The notes under the pieces: generated by a model
Told to the model about the DNA's origin: nothing
Databases searched by the model: none
Seen by the model: only the letters and a program-made list of their open reading frames with translations
Program-made: the position numbers and the translations under genes
Shown here: in pieces, positions 1 through 15,136 of the stretch
Position numbering within the stretch: the stretch's first letter is position 1
How the letters are laid out: each line of letters opens with the position of its first letter
Origin: a bacterium
GTDB taxonomy: Bacteria; SAR324; XYD2-FULL-50-16
Assembly (NCBI GenBank): GCA_024275165.1
Contig: JAJRZQ010000033.1
Location: forward strand, 1-15,136
Length of the DNA: 15,136 bases
Direction: 5' to 3'

Positions 1-1215
1 ACGACTCCTGCCCCCATGGCTCATGCCCGCGCCGTGCCCATTTATCAAACCAGCTCTTTTTTGTTCGACAGCCCAGAGCAGGGGGCTGATACCTATATCG
101 GCATGACGAACCCCACTATCGAGGCGTTTGAAAAGCGCATGGCGGAAATGGAAGGCGGGGCCGGGGCTTTGGCTACCGCGAGCGGGCAATCTGCCGAGTT
201 TATGGCGATTGCCAATCTTGCCGGAAGTGGGGATGAAATCGTTTCTACCTCCAGTTTGCAGGGGGGAACCGGTACCCTGCTGAGTCAAACCTTGCCCAGG
301 TTTGGCATTCGGGTTCATTTTGCCGACGGGGCGGACCCCGATTCCATCGCGGGCTTGATCCGCGAAAAAACCAAGGCCGTTTATGTTGAAACCATTGGCA
401 ACCCCGGGGGGCATATCGCCGATATTCCCGCGATTGCCGAAATAGCGCACCAACATGGTATCCCTCTGCTGGTCAATTCCACCTTTACAACGCCCATTCT
501 TTGCCGCCCTATTGAGCTGGGCGCGGATATTGTGATTCATTCGGCCACGGAATTTATTGGTGGACACGGTACGAGCATTGGCGGGGTGATTATTGACTCA
601 GGGAAGTTTGACTGGGGGCAAAATGACCGGTTCCCCGGTTTGATGGATCCGGACTCCGCCTATCATGAAATCGTTTATACCGAGGTGGTGGGCAATTTAG
701 CCTATATCACCAAGGCGAGGACGATTTTACTGCGCGATCTTGGCCCAGCGCTCAGCCCCTTGAATTCTTTTTTGTTTCTGCAGGGCTTAGAGACCCTGCA
801 TTTAAGGATAGAGCGCCATAACTCCAATGCCTTAGCCCTGGCCCGCTATCTGGAAAAGCATCCCAAGGTGCAATGGGTTCAGTTTGCCGGTCTAGCCAAA
901 CATAAGGATCACGAACGGGCCAAAAAACTTTTTGGGGGGAGGTACTTTGGCAGTATTTTTACCTTTGGGCTCAAGGGAGGCTCAGAGGCGGGGGCGGCTC
1001 TCGTGCGCCAGGTCAAGCTTGCCGGTCATTTGCCCAATGTGGCGGATGTCAAGACCTTGGTCAGTCACCCCGCAAGCACGACCCATCAACATTTAAGCGA
1101 ATCGGAACAGTACGCGGCCGGGGTTTTGCCTGAAATGGTGCGGGTCTCGGTGGGGATTGAGCATCCCGACGACATCATCGCCGACCTCGCTCAGGCGCTC
1201 GCTGCTTTGGGGTGA
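1..1215 (+). CDS. Cys/Met-metabolism PLP-fold protein (O-acetylhomoserine sulfhydrylase-like), probable pseudoenzyme, 5' partial
   Basis: The fold is that of O-acetylhomoserine sulfhydrylase/cystathionine gamma-synthase enzymes, which make methionine or homocysteine with PLP. Landmarks numbered from the ATG at 16 are ARAVPIYQTS (4-13), ETIGNP (125-130), GGHGTSIGGVI (182-192) and the C-terminal HPASTTH and VRVSVGIEH. The reading frame is open to the window edge and homologues have about 20 more residues before ARAVPIYQT, so the real start is probably upstream; the ATG at 16 has no ribosome site. The cofactor site is badly altered. The Schiff-base Lys of the SATK motif is Glu179, the pyridine-nitrogen Asp is Asn154, the ring-stacking Tyr is Gln82 and the phosphate-binding Arg of the Y-x-R motif is Gly29. 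Tyr27 and the C-terminal Arg of VRVSVG remain. The frame is otherwise intact over about 400 residues, which suggests a maintained PLP-free paralogue rather than decay. Fold assignment is secure; function is unknown. Confidence 0.9.
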   Translation, partial: TTPAPMAHARAVPIYQTSSFLFDSPEQGADTYIGMTNPTIEAFEKRMAEMEGGAGALATASGQSAEFMAIANLAGSGDEIVSTSSLQGGTGTLLSQTLPRFGIRVHFADGADPDSIAGLIREKTKAVYVETIGNPGGHIADIPAIAEIAHQHGIPLLVNSTFTTPILCRPIELGADIVIHSATEFIGGHGTSIGGVIIDSGKFDWGQNDRFPGLMDPDSAYHEIVYTEVVGNLAYITKARTILLRDLGPALSPLNSFLFLQGLETLHLRIERHNSNALALARYLEKHPKVQWVQFAGLAKHKDHERAKKLFGGRYFGSIFTFGLKGGSEAGAALVRQVKLAGHLPNVADVKTLVSHPASTTHQHLSESEQYAAGVLPEMVRVSVGIEHPDDIIADLAQALAALG

Positions 1216-1262: not shown

Positions 1263-1377
1263 ATATATTATAAATTGGTTTTTTTAACCCTTGGCCGGAA
1301 AGGCATTGCCAAAACCGCTTGGATTAGCTAAGTTTATCGTTTCTGTACTCCCTTGAACGATCAAGAAGGACTCGATC

Positions 1378-1572
1378 ATGTCTATGAAATGCGATATCTG
1401 CGGCAAAGCCCCTCAGACCGGCAACAATGTAAGCCACGCCCACAACAAAACCCGTAGGCGCTGGCTACCCAATCTGCAATCGGTGCGGGTTAAAAAAGCC
1501 AACGGCAACAAAACAAAGCTTACCCTGTGCGCCAACTGCATCAAATCCGGTGCCACGATAGCCTCAGTTTAA
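1378..1572 (+). CDS. rpmB: 50S ribosomal protein L28
   Basis: This is a structural protein of the large ribosomal subunit. The 64-residue protein has the L28 signature: a CDICGK start, the basic [16 protein letters not shown] core and an [11 protein letters not shown] end. It is the zinc-binding form with two CxxC pairs (Cys5/Cys8 and Cys51/Cys54), and is short compared with the roughly 78 residues of E. coli L28. The ATG has a strong ribosome site, AAGAAGGA at 1363-1370, seven bases upstream. Unlike in many bacteria, rpmG (L33) does not follow; the next gene, a rhodanese-NifU fusion, starts 24 bases downstream. The identification is secure. Confidence 0.96.
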
Positions 1573-1596: not shown

Positions 1597-2199
1597 GTGA
1601 AATTCGTCAACAACAACGACTTTCCTGCAGAGCAGTATCAACTTGACGCGTCTGAGGCGATTGCCCAACGGCGTCAGCCTCAACCCCCGATCTTTGTCGA
1701 TGTCCGTACCACCGAAGAATACAAAGAACAACACCTTGCAGGGGCAAACCTGATCCCTGCGGAATTTTTGGAAGATCATCTGTTCCAACTTCCTCCCTTT
1801 GCTCATATTATCCTTTATGGGGAGGCGGCGGATGAAAAAACCATCCAAGCGGTCAAACTATTGCGCGATAATGGCTTTAACGAGGTGAGTTATGTCCCCG
1901 GGGGGTTGCCTGCCCTGGTGGCCGCCTTGAAAGCGGATGATCAAGAAATCTTTTTGGCGGACTTGCCAAAAGAGCAATGGAATCAAAAGATTGAAGAGGT
2001 TTTGACCCAAAAGGTGCGGCCTGCCTTGGCCAGTGATGGAGGCGGCTTGGAAGTTTTAAAGATTATGGAGGACAAGCTCTATGTGCAATACCAAGGCGCT
2101 TGCTCGGGTTGCTCTTCCAGCACGGCAGGGACTCTGCGCTTTATTCAAGGGACTTTAAGAGTGGCGCTCAATCACGACATCGAGGTGATTACCGCCTAA
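1597..2199 (+). CDS. Rhodanese-like domain fused to NifU C-terminal Fe-S scaffold domain
   Basis: Residues about 15-112 form a rhodanese-like domain, with FVDVRTTEEY (33-42), the H-xx-GA-xx-IP motif and a C-terminal PGGLPAL. Residues about 126-200 form a NifU C-terminal (Nfu) domain: a KVRPALASDGGGLEV start, then the Cys169-x-x-Cys172 pair of GACSGCSSSTAGTL, which in Nfu proteins binds a labile Fe-S cluster for transfer to target enzymes. The rhodanese active site normally begins with a persulfide-forming Cys after the Ile-Leu-Tyr strand; here that position is Gly75. The domain is therefore predicted not to transfer sulfur and may bind or dock instead. Translation starts at GTG 1597, preceded by AAGGGGG at 1587-1593, a short spacing. 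The gene is probably co-transcribed with rpmB and gmk. Domain calls are secure; the role in Fe-S carrier work is inferred. Confidence 0.9.
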   Translation: MKFVNNNDFPAEQYQLDASEAIAQRRQPQPPIFVDVRTTEEYKEQHLAGANLIPAEFLEDHLFQLPPFAHIILYGEAADEKTIQAVKLLRDNGFNEVSYVPGGLPALVAALKADDQEIFLADLPKEQWNQKIEEVLTQKVRPALASDGGGLEVLKIMEDKLYVQYQGACSGCSSSTAGTLRFIQGTLRVALNHDIEVITA

Positions 2200-5730: not shown

Positions 5731-7185
5731 TTATTTTTCTTGGCCCAATCCCTTAGCAACGATTTCATAGAGATTTTTTGAGATTCCAGGCAGCGCGAAG
5801 AGGGTTTTTAATTCTTTTTGCATCAATTCTTGGCGAGGCCCCTCGAATTTACGAAAATGGATCAAGGGTTGAACCAAGCGGGCCGCCATTTGCGGGTTTT
5901 TTGGGTCGATGCTTTCAATCTGCGTTCGCAGCAAGGCATAGCCCTGTCCTTCGGCTTGATGAAACCCCTTGAAGTTGCGGTTGCTAAACACCCCTAAGAG
6001 CGACCTCAGTTTATTGGGGTTCTGGGGGTCGTAAGCAACATGTTTCATCAAGTTTTGGATTTTGTCGGCGTCCATTCCTCGGCTGCCTGCCTGCAGGCTG
6101 AACCAGTGATTCATGACCAGAGGCTCTTTTTCCCATTGGCGTTCAAATTCCTTCAAGGCTTGATCGCGCTCTGGGCCGGGGTGGTCGATCAAGGCGGATA
6201 AAGCCCCCAGCTGATCGGTCATGTTGCTTGCCTGAAGAAACTGCTCCAGGGCCAGCGCAAGCTCGCCCGCTTCTGCCAGGTAGGCCAAGGCTAAATTTTT
6301 CAAGGCTCTTTTGCCGACCTGGGTCGCCTCAAATTGATAGGCCGCGGGGTCTTGCATGCGCGCGTAGCTTTGGGCAAACCAGGGTTTGAGCTGGATGGCC
6401 AGTTCGTGTTTGAAGAATTCCCGCACTTGGCAAATGCCTTCGACTAGAATCGGTTGGACCTCTTCTGCGAGCATGCCCGGGCTGGGGACTTGCAAGGCCA
6501 AGGCAACCCAGGCCGGATCAGCTTGATCCTCTTCTAAAATCTGTCGCCAAGCTTGCGGCAGCCTTGGGTCGAGGGTCAGCTCTCCTGAGCCGTAAAGCTG
6601 TTCCAACAGTTTGCCGGTGATCAGCTTTTGCCCCGCTTCCCAGCGGTTAAAGGGGTCTTGATCTCGGGCAAACAAAAAGGCCAGTTCTTCGTCCGTCGTC
6701 TTTTTCCGTAGTTTAACGGGAGCCGAAAAGCCCCGCAGCAGGCTTAAAATGGGTTTTTCACTTATATTTTGAAAGACAAATTCTTGGGTTTCTTCCTCCA
6801 GCAGCAGCAGGCGCTCACAGGGGGCGCCTTTTTCCTTTCGCAGGGTAAGGGGCAGGGCGTGGCCCTGGGAGTTGTACAGAGCGGTCAGCAAGGGAATCAA
6901 CAAGGCCTTGGGGCCTTGTTTTAAGAGCAAACGAAATTCTTTTTTTTCTGGGCTCCATTGCTCTTGGACTTCAACAACGGGGGTCCCCGCTTGCTGATAC
7001 CAGCCCATGAAGGGAGCGGCCTCCCAGTTGTTGGCCGCTTCCATGGCGGCGATAAAGTCCTCCACCCGTACCGCTTGCCCGTCATGGCGGGCAAAATAGA
7101 GGTCCATTCCCCTGCGAAACCCAGCTTGCCCCAAAAGCAGGCGCAGCATGCGAATCAGCTCCCCTCCCTTGTTGTATACCGTCAT
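5731..7185 (-). CDS. pepN: PepN C-terminal fragment
   Basis: This 484-codon open frame carries the end of the catalytic domain, including the TVYNKG segment with the catalytic Tyr, then the beta-sandwich and the helical C-terminal domain (SNMTDQLGALSAL, NPNKLRSLLGVFSNRN, MAARLVQPLIHF), all matching PepN to its natural end. The first Met (at 7185) is an internal residue of the intact enzyme, and no ribosome site precedes it, so independent translation is doubtful. Its intactness argues that the TAG upstream is recent, artefactual or read through. Confidence 0.75.
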   Translation of the reverse strand: MTVYNKGGELIRMLRLLLGQAGFRRGMDLYFARHDGQAVRVEDFIAAMEAANNWEAAPFMGWYQQAGTPVVEVQEQWSPEKKEFRLLLKQGPKALLIPLLTALYNSQGHALPLTLRKEKGAPCERLLLLEEETQEFVFQNISEKPILSLLRGFSAPVKLRKKTTDEELAFLFARDQDPFNRWEAGQKLITGKLLEQLYGSGELTLDPRLPQAWRQILEEDQADPAWVALALQVPSPGMLAEEVQPILVEGICQVREFFKHELAIQLKPWFAQSYARMQDPAAYQFEATQVGKRALKNLALAYLAEAGELALALEQFLQASNMTDQLGALSALIDHPGPERDQALKEFERQWEKEPLVMNHWFSLQAGSRGMDADKIQNLMKHVAYDPQNPNKLRSLLGVFSNRNFKGFHQAEGQGYALLRTQIESIDPKNPQMAARLVQPLIHFRKFEGPRQELMQKELKTLFALPGISKNLYEIVAKGLGQEK

Positions 7186-7203
7186 GGTGTAGAAGTTGTT
7201 GAT

Positions 7204-8319
7204 CTAGATAAAGTGATCGGGCCGCACGGGGTGGCGCATCGGCCCTTCGTCTTCGGGGAACTGGTGAGCCCGTAAGAGCTTTACATCCTCAATCCGCGCC
7301 AGGGCAGCGGAATTTAGGTCTTGGGTGAAGCTTTGATCCCTAAAAATCGTGAGCCCCTCTTTTAAACTCAACTGAAACCAGTCGCGCAGGGTGACCCGGT
7401 TGCCCGTCCAATTGTGAAAATATTCATGAGCGATGATTCCTTGAATATTCTCAAATTCCTTATCCGTTGCCGTGGCCGGGTTGGCGAGGATGCAAGAGCT
7501 GTTGAAGATGTTGAGCCCTTTGTTTTCCATAGCGCCCATGTTAAAGTCGTTGACCGCGACGATCATGTAGATATCCAGGTCGTACTCACGGCCATAGATC
7601 TCTTCATCCCATTGCATGGCCTGTTTCAGGCTTTTCATGGCGTGCTCGGTGCGGCCTTGGTTGGCCGGTTCGACCCAGATTTCTAAAATGACCTTTTTCC
7701 CCTTGAAGGTGGTGAATGCGTCTCGATGACAAACCAAATTCCCTGCCACCAAAGCAAAGAGATAAGCGGGCTTGGCAAAGGGGTCTTGCCAGGTGGCAAA
7801 GTGGCGGCCTTCTGCGAGTTCTCCTTTTTCGACGCAGTTGCCGTTGGAGAGCAAAACCGGAATGTCTTGATCGGCTTCGATGCGGGTGGTGATTAGGGTC
7901 ATCACATCGGGGCGGTCTGGGTAGTAGGTGATGCGGCGAAAGCCCTCGGGCTCGCATTGGGTGCAGTAGTTTCCGCTGGAGCGATACAAGCCCTCTAAAG
8001 CGGTGTTGCGCTCTGGGTCAATTTCCACCTGAGTTTCAAGTTCAAAGCCTAAAGGGCAGTTTTTTAGGATCAAGCCCTCGGCATCGACTTCGTAATCGGT
8101 CTCTTGGAGTTCTTTCCCCTCACGCTTGAGGGATAACAGCTTCAAGCCACGGCCATAAAGCCGCAGGTTGCGGTTTTTTTGTCCCGGGGTTTGCTCAAGG
8201 CGCATTTTTGCCAATACTTGGGTGTGGGCAGGAAAAATGCGTATGGTTAAGTCCAATTGCGCCACCTGAAAGGCGGGCGGCTGGTAGTCCCTTAAAAAAA
8301 CAGGCGCTCGTTGGTTCAT
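7204..8319 (-). CDS. pepN: PepN N-terminal fragment (beta domain and zinc site)
   Basis: These 371 residues carry the N-terminal beta-sheet domain and most of the thermolysin-like catalytic domain. The exopeptidase motif GAMEN is at 262-266, the zinc ligands are in HEYFH (298-302) and the third ligand is Glu321 in LKEGLT. Spacing from the first His to the family Tyr (beyond the stop) is 84 positions, identical to E. coli. The ATG at 8319 overlaps the TGA of gatB by four bases and has only a weak ribosome site, as expected for coupled translation. On its own the fragment is predicted inactive. Confidence 0.8.
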
Positions 8320-14033: not shown

Positions 14034-14351
14034 TTAGGGTTCAAAAAGAAGGTTCACTTTGATGTGAGCTTCTTTGGCATCTTGTTTTAAGATGACCTCG
14101 TTGTTCGAACCAATGGAAAAACCAAATTGCAATTCCACCCGTTTGGGTTTTTGCTCTAAGGTGGTTAAGGGTTTTAAGACCTTATCCACTAAGGGGCGGA
14201 TCACCGCTACCGCTTCTCCGAATTCACGGGCACGGTTATATAGACCGGGCGCGTCTTCTTTGACTCGATCCGCTTTTCCCGCCTCTTCTTTCCATTCGAC
14301 AAAGAGACTTTGGTTTTCGTCGAGGTGAAATTCCAGATAATTTTTAACCAT
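14034..14351 (-). CDS. Trypco1-like (CU044_2847 family) small domain protein
   Basis: The 105-residue protein resembles trypsin-co-occurring domain 1 (CU044_2847 family). It has an N-terminal beta stretch (LEFHLDENQSLFVEW), a central helix built as RAREFGEAVAVIRPLVDKVL (40-59), and the diagnostic end VELQFGFSIGSNNEVILKQ with EAHIKVNLLFEP. In the family the end reads approximately VEFG-x-x-LSAEAGAVI...EAxFKVTL. Trypco domains were described from comparative genomics as adaptors found with trypsin-like peptidases and STAND NTPases in bacterial conflict systems. No such partner is inside this window. The neighbours are FmdB downstream and a divergent XRE-ankyrin gene. The ATG has no ribosome site, and a promoter lies just upstream, giving a very short leader. 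The family call is from memory of the pattern. Confidence 0.7.
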   Translation of the reverse strand: MVKNYLEFHLDENQSLFVEWKEEAGKADRVKEDAPGLYNRAREFGEAVAVIRPLVDKVLKPLTTLEQKPKRVELQFGFSIGSNNEVILKQDAKEAHIKVNLLFEP

Positions 14352-14371
14352 TGTTTGAATATTCTTATATT

Positions 14372-14400
14372 AGTATAATATATCAAGCTTGCCAAGACAA
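14372..14400 (-). promoter_or_regulatory. Candidate promoter for the Trypco1-fmdB unit
   Basis: On the minus strand TTGTCT (14395-14400) is followed by 17 bases and TATACT (14372-14377), in an AT-rich block. The expected start near 14365 leaves only about 14 leader bases before the ATG at 14351, consistent with the absence of a ribosome site and near-leaderless translation. Confidence 0.5.
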
Positions 14401-14404
14401 AAGT

Positions 14405-14412
14405 CGCTAGCG
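14405..14412. promoter_or_regulatory. Palindrome CGCTAGCG between the Trypco1 and XRE-ankyrin genes
   Basis: This perfect 8-bp palindrome, with an overlapping GCTA-GCG-TAGC repeat (14406-14416), lies five bases beyond the -35 element of the Trypco1 promoter and upstream of the XRE-ankyrin gene. It is a plausible operator for the adjacent XRE protein; binding is inference only. The rest of 14352-14483 shows no clear plus-strand promoter. Confidence 0.3.
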
Positions 14413-14483
14413 TAGCATTACACTCTTTGTTAGCCTATGTCAGACACTAAAGCGAAGCAACCGAGACTTTATTCAATGGCCTT

Positions 14484-15136
14484 ATGATGACAATTGCTCA
14501 AGGCAGTCTTTCTTTTCACTCCGGCAAAAAACTTGCTTTAGCTCGCAAGTTGAAGGGGTTTACCCAAGAGGAACTGGCCGGAACCTTGGGCTTTCCCGCG
14601 GTTTCGATTAAAACCCTGCGCCGTTGGGAGCAAAAAGGAATTAACCCCGTGCGTTTAAAAGAAGTAGCTGAATTTTTTCAGCTGCCCTTGTGGCCCTTTT
14701 TTGATGAACACCTCGACCCGGAGAGTTTCAGCACGCTGATTCTGCACCCGCAAAATTTTAGCCCCGCTTTGAGAGGGAGCCTTATATCCTCTGTAGGAGG
14801 GGAGTATTGTCGCGAAAAAATACCCGATCCTGAAGAAAGCAACTTTCGCGGCAAGGTCGAATTGCTCCGCTATGCTAAAATTGAGGATTTGTTGATCGAG
14901 CTCAAGGGCTTTCCCATTTTATTTCAAGATACAAAAGGGTGGCATTTGTTGCTCTACGCCGTTAAATTTGAGCGGGCCGATTTGGTGTTTCAGTTGGGGG
15001 CCAGGGCGGGCGACCTCGTCAACCTTGCCGACAGCGATGGATTTACCCCCTTGATGTGCGCCGCCTATCAAGGGAACCTGGATAGTCTGACCACATTGCT
15101 CGATTTAGGCGCCCAGGCTGATTCTGTCGATGCTTC
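14484..15136 (+). CDS. XRE-type helix-turn-helix protein with ankyrin repeats, 3' partial
   Basis: The frame is open from ATG 14484 (or 14487) to the window edge, giving at least 217 residues. Residues about 13-68 are a Cro/C1-type helix-turn-helix: KKLALARKLKGFTQEELAGT, then a recognition region SIKTLRRWEQKGINP and LKEVAEFFQLP. Residues 70-150 are a linker I do not recognise. Ankyrin repeats follow: a degenerate one at about 152-181 (GWHLLLYAVKFERADLVFQL) and a canonical one from 184 (DGFTPLMCAAYQGNLDSLTTLLDLGA). The C-terminus is missing. DNA binding is expected from the first domain and protein-protein contacts from the repeats. No ribosome site precedes the start, but a 16-codon open frame (ATG 14437 to TGA 14487) overlaps it by ATGA and could couple translation. 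The gene diverges from the Trypco1 gene across 132 bp. Confidence 0.8.
   Translation, partial: MMTIAQGSLSFHSGKKLALARKLKGFTQEELAGTLGFPAVSIKTLRRWEQKGINPVRLKEVAEFFQLPLWPFFDEHLDPESFSTLILHPQNFSPALRGSLISSVGGEYCREKIPDPEESNFRGKVELLRYAKIEDLLIELKGFPILFQDTKGWHLLLYAVKFERADLVFQLGARAGDLVNLADSDGFTPLMCAAYQGNLDSLTTLLDLGAQADSVDA

Follow-up and report, generated by a model that had tools for sequence, protein, structure and literature searches.

Does a MetY homologue that no longer carries the residues by which its family holds PLP persist as a working protein, or is it a gene on its way out? The question is raised by the first gene of a 15,136-nucleotide stretch of DNA (the window), which is the entire contig C25 of G000, a host genome of the phylum SAR324. 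An earlier note on the window had described this gene as a MetY-like frame that lost four of five PLP contacts, and had suggested selection for a PLP-free role. The positions of the relevant features are collected in Table 1.

Identity, extent and predicted fold of the MetY-like frame

The frame was open up to a TGA stop. In a profile search it matched TIGR01326 over residues 3-401 with 554.8 bits (curated cut-off, 495.1), and Pfam Cys_Met_Meta_PP also matched. The predicted model of the protein had a pLDDT of 87.1, with low values only at residues 1-21 and about 28-35. Compared to solved MetY chains, the model gave Z scores of 53-57, the best being 8sf5 (Z 57.3, rmsd 1.8 A over 388 residues); it was derived from the family alignment and is silent on PLP binding. 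The marks of a pseudogene, a stop or a frameshift, were seen neither in the 404-codon open frame nor in the part on contig C13, and all length changes in the gene are multiples of three.

The downstream neighbours in the window are an rpmB-like frame, a rhodanese-NifU gene and gmk, none of them a ThiS, ThiF or JAB gene. The first of these is a short frame at about 1328-1560 (+), between metY and the rhodanese-NifU gene, and resembles ribosomal protein L28. The second, at 1597-2199 (+), encodes a single 200-residue protein that consists of a rhodanese domain and a C-terminal NifU domain. At the far end of the window (14034-15134), a CU044_2847-family protein (-) lies divergent from an HTH-ankyrin protein that is truncated at the contig end.

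The 5' end and the quality of the assembly

The gene starts on C13, the last 135 bases of which are identical to window bases 6-140. From this overlap we infer that C13 and C25 join. Upstream of the overlap the two contigs differ in the copy number of a 15-base repeat unit, a difference that reflects either length variation within the population sampled or a bubble in the assembly. The N-terminus MGERKLHIDTLAVHAGQ... is encoded on C13, and the joined protein would start MGERKLHIDTLAVHAGQAPDATT. The repeat, at window 1-22 and at the end of L003, adds PAPMV units to the N-terminus, and the relatives are without such units.

Several genes of the assembly contain stray stops. pepN in the window (5731-8319, -; TIGR02414, 1130.8 bits when read through) carries a single in-frame TAG at 7204-7206, with both halves intact. 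G000 has a single full-length sulfite reductase (L142 3851-6340, -, near the MetY2 genes described below), and this has an in-frame TAG at about 5525, where G004 has Gln. A single TAA or TAG also occurs in each of mnmG (L164), serA (L151), an M28 peptidase (L184) and a histidine kinase (L165). Recoding of TAG, which was suspected from pepN and the sulfite reductase, was rejected: about 19-24% of long frames still end in TAG, and no suppressor tRNA turned up in 1.88 Mb. The stray stops are therefore likely to be either errors in the consensus or genuine nonsense changes, and not the sign of an altered code. The implied error rate was estimated at a few per 10,000 bases, which is well under one per gene.

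Residues of the cofactor site

Residue positions were fixed by an alignment of 29 relatives, an alignment of 23 orthologues, and the solved MetY chains 8sf5 and 7kb0. In an active PLP-dependent homocysteine synthase the S-x-T-K motif provides the Schiff-base lysine; this place is taken by Glu184, and the expected Asp, Tyr and Arg are replaced by Asn159, Gln87 and Gly34. Codons and alignments thus confirmed the Glu, Asn, Gln and Gly that the earlier note had assigned to Lys210, Asp185, Tyr111 and Arg58. Its nucleotide coordinates for these codons were exact; its residue numbers were counted from the ATG at 16, so that its Glu179 corresponds to frame codon 184. The four replacements cost a minimum of five nucleotide changes, as Tyr (TAY) to CAG takes two.

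Table 1. Features of the MetY-like gene in the window (residues numbered by frame codon; CBL, E. coli cystathionine beta-lyase).
Feature	Position	Strand	Evidence or remark
MetY-like (O-acetylhomoserine sulfhydrylase family) frame without PLP-binding residues	1..1215	+	5' end on contig C13
Contig end at 15-base in-frame repeat (TTCCTGCCCCCATGG: 2 units on C13, 1 on C25)	1..22	+	C13/C25 comparison
In-frame loss of 27 bases (LFALKEFGN in relatives), between codons 29 and 30	85..90	+	alignment
Tyr32 (TAT), CBL Tyr56 equivalent, kept	94..96	+	codon and alignment
Gly34 (GGC), replaces phosphate-binding Arg (Arg58)	100..102	+	codon and alignment
Gln87 (CAG), replaces ring-stacking Tyr (Tyr111)	259..261	+	codon and alignment
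Asn159 (AAT), replaces pyridine-N Asp (Asp185)	475..477	+	codon and alignment
Ser181-Ala-Thr183, Ser207/Thr209 equivalents, kept	541..549	+	codon and alignment
Glu184 (GAA), replaces Schiff-base Lys (Lys210)	550..552	+	codon, alignment and pattern search
Glu223, replaces invariant Gly (YHG motif)	667..669	+	23-orthologue alignment
Ser359, CBL Ser339 equivalent, kept	1075..1077	+	codon
His364, replaces invariant Gln (TTHQQL motif)	1090..1092	+	23-orthologue alignment
Arg381, substrate-carboxylate Arg372 equivalent, kept	1141..1143	+	codon and alignment

The count of four lost contacts out of five holds in that four are replaced and Tyr32 is kept, but the five represent one choice of residues. 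Further first-shell residues, namely Ser181, Thr183, Gly62, Ser359 and Arg381, are kept. We take these to be first-shell residues, with the equivalences of Table 1, from general knowledge of the family. The extent of change had also been underestimated, since the nine-residue deletion, which sits right before the Tyr-x-Arg motif, and the changes Gly223Glu and Gln364His were missed. The protein deviates at 8 of the 77 columns that are invariant in the 23 orthologues; single orthologues show 0-6 deviations over these columns, never at PLP residues. Judged by its residues, the protein probably no longer binds PLP.

Comparison with relatives

Every other MetY protein examined keeps the lysine (29 relatives, and 115 frames from 80 GTDB loci among the matches listed). 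All cofactor residues were kept in 114 of the 115 GTDB frames, and the sole exception still has the Lys, the Asp and the Tyr111 equivalent. The window protein is 63-66% identical to five intact orthologues of its taxonomic family and to a broken copy in G004, all six of which keep the cofactor residues; the closest relative among the GTDB matches listed is about 65% identical. Glu at the lysine position, searched with the degenerate pattern SxTE..GGHG, was found only in the window gene among 52 SAR324 genomes and 383 genomes overall, with a pattern that needs the GGHG context and would therefore miss more divergent cases.

The search for homologues with the same replacements, proposed in the earlier note, found none that share them, and so a family of such proteins is not supported. 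The putative cofactor-less MetY is a single lineage, an orphan.

A second MetY and the locus in sister genera

A second, intact MetY, for which a check had been recommended, was found in G000 on contig C47 (MetY2). It has an SSTK motif and is about 36-38% identical to the window protein. Its cluster also encodes a ThiS-type carrier with GGGQ at its C-terminus, an E1 of the ThiF/MoeB type and a JAB protein, and is followed by sulfite reductase and then by more sulfate-assimilation-like genes (the latter judged by eye). Relatives of MetY2 at 65-68% identity were found only in G001, G002 and G004, and the next nearest, in G007, is 49% identical. The layout on C47 is as expected of a protein-thiocarboxylate route, such as Krishnamoorthy and Begley reportedly described in Wolinella in 2011. 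By its gene context, MetY2 appears to be a homocysteine synthase fed by the ThiS-type sulfur carrier, and it would do the job of the classical MetY.

It is in precisely the three sister genera with such relatives of MetY2 (G001, G002 and G004) that the classical metY is at risk. The classical metY locus has the order lepB, outer-membrane-protein (OMP) gene, metY, which is common to G002 and G004. The gene is intact in G002. In G004 (L140 10573-11948, -) it contains a one-base deletion in a G run and an in-frame TGA, and the catalytic residues are kept. The classical metY is absent from G001, where, on a 72-kb contig, the OMP gene is followed by a ThiD-like gene. Other members of the family have an intact metY, or one that is complete up to the edge of its contig; it adjoins metA in G003, G006, G008 and G009, and a partial metX in G005.

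Since the host and its sisters have a second sulfur route, the classical metY probably became redundant. Loss of substrate supply was also considered as a cause and was rejected, because the steps around MetY are still present. MetX was not found over the cut-off in the family. MetA-type HTS was present in nine of the ten genomes, including G000. B12 methionine synthase was present too, so the reactions on either side of MetY have not disappeared.

Decay versus constraint

In a GatB tree, G000 stands beside G002 and G004 on a branch of normal length (0.28 vs. 0.24-0.26). The MetY branch of G000 was 0.46 vs. 0.13-0.14, an excess of amino-acid change of about 2.5-3-fold. At 228 sites where six family members agree, the window protein shows 42 differences, whereas the members themselves differ at 5-15.

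These changes were not spread evenly. Four of the six substitutions at invariant sites fall on the five named contacts (hypergeometric P = 6e-5, or 3e-3 counting 11 contacts, with a contact set that was chosen after the sequence was seen). At the other invariant sites (about 70), two were changed, compared to about eight expected under uniform excess divergence of about 12% (P = 0.01).

A codon model on the species tree gave a dN/dS of 0.11 on the window branch compared to a background of 0.044 (2 delta lnL 4.4), values that are rough because synonymous sites are near saturation. A branch dN/dS of 1 was rejected (2 delta lnL 21, or 10.5 log-likelihood units), where the estimate averages the time before and after loss of the PLP site and concerns a single lineage. 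That the frame has no stop says little by itself (P = 0.13 at a neutral change of 12%).

These data are poorly explained by plain decay of the whole gene and best explained by a loss of PLP function in a protein that kept its fold. The earlier view that the frame is well conserved and that its changes gather at the cofactor contacts was upheld. The argument against decay gained support as well, in that uniform neutral decay fits poorly by both the invariant-site test and the branch dN/dS.

Explanation and alternatives

The window gene would be the classical metY that this SAR324 family had from its ancestor, retained in its place after lepB and the OMP gene. A second homocysteine synthase with a ThiS-type carrier (ThiS, MetY2, ThiF, JAB) would have made the classical MetY dispensable. 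In G000, the residues needed to hold and activate PLP would then have disappeared, together with nine residues of the N-terminal segment. By the mechanism of its family, the protein could then no longer work as a PLP enzyme, and the rest of its fold would be under constraint. We lean towards this reading, a PLP-free, constrained pseudoenzyme born of pathway replacement. Against it count that the replacements are known from one lineage and that the locus is dispensable in two of the three sister genera.

A non-catalytic role of the protein is plausible. The surviving constraint would reflect a non-catalytic (binding or regulatory) use, not a recent arrival of the mutations. The PLP-free role suggested earlier gains from the clustering, the conserved frame and the intact paralogue, but nothing points to a specific partner or ligand. 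Only tentatively do we propose the fuller version, a selected PLP-free MetY derivative in which the old protein was kept as a non-catalytic binder or regulator, with its cofactor pocket rebuilt, after the sulfur-carrier takeover.

Because sister genera can do without the orthologous locus, a relic that is dying out is a serious alternative, though a less probable one. The gene would be in the course of loss after the thiocarboxylate takeover, with the active site going first and the frame still unbroken. This would agree with the frameshift and nonsense change at the same locus in G004, its disappearance from G001, the faster amino-acid change on the window-gene branch, the in-frame length difference between C13 and C25 at the 5' end, and replacements that are common to no homologue. 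It agrees less well with the way in which the changes cluster on PLP contacts (P 6e-5 to 3e-3) and spare about 68 of the 70 remaining invariant sites, with a branch dN/dS far under 1, and with a whole frame that has neither stop nor frameshift and varies in length by multiples of three.

That the protein serves as a non-catalytic partner subunit of MetY2 is improbable. The N-terminal segment of MetY-family proteins reaches into the active site of the neighbouring subunit, and the segment with the Arg58 equivalent is the most altered part of the window protein; for this reason, and because identity is just about 36-38%, partnership with MetY2 is not favoured. The sisters, moreover, have MetY2 without a classical MetY (G001) or with a broken one (G004). 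The idea draws on a shared fold family, on the presence of both genes in G000, and on the precedent of SPT1 in serine palmitoyltransferase, which lacks the PLP-binding motif and is still required (PMC6148460).

Equally hard to credit is a PLP pocket turned into another ligand or catalytic site with new chemistry. New polar residues do stand at former contacts (Gln87, Asn159, Glu184), perhaps joined by Glu223 and His364, and the substrate-carboxylate Arg and the Ser are kept; however, there are no relatives to show that the new residues were themselves selected.

A sequencing or assembly artefact can practically be set aside: the contig does end within the gene, and several conserved genes with a single stop suggest some consensus errors, but an error rate well under one per gene cannot explain how a single gene came by five specific nucleotide changes and by in-frame indels as well.

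The clade presents a small natural series of one gene, intact, frameshifted, deleted and cofactor-less, beside a second route. Such a series makes the fate of a displaced enzyme testable. The gene is also an annotation trap, as automatic pipelines probably label it an active homocysteine synthase. In a limited open-access search of the literature, no account was found of a Cys/Met-metabolism family protein whose PLP site is gone but whose frame and fold persist.

Comparison with known systems

Compared to MetY (TIGR01326; PDB 8sf5, 7kb0, 2ctz), the window protein is alike in sequence, length, predicted fold and most invariant motifs, and its gene occupies a place common to the sister genera. 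Unlike MetY, it has the Schiff-base Lys, the pyridine Asp, the stacking Tyr and the phosphate Arg replaced and carries the nine-residue deletion, and so would not be an active member by the known mechanism.

A passage of PMC5764234 cites Krishnamoorthy and Begley (2011) for the protein-thiocarboxylate-dependent homocysteine synthase pathway of Wolinella succinogenes. G000 has the same layout on C47, with an intact paralogue beside ThiS, ThiF and JAB. The window gene, in contrast to the MetY of that route, lies outside the C47 cluster, and its product is only about 36-38% identical to the cluster's MetY.

SPT1/LCB1 (PMC6148460), like the window protein, is a PLP-fold protein without the cofactor lysine that exists beside a catalytic homologue. 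However, SPT1/LCB1 is a required partner, whereas the sister genera live without the window gene.
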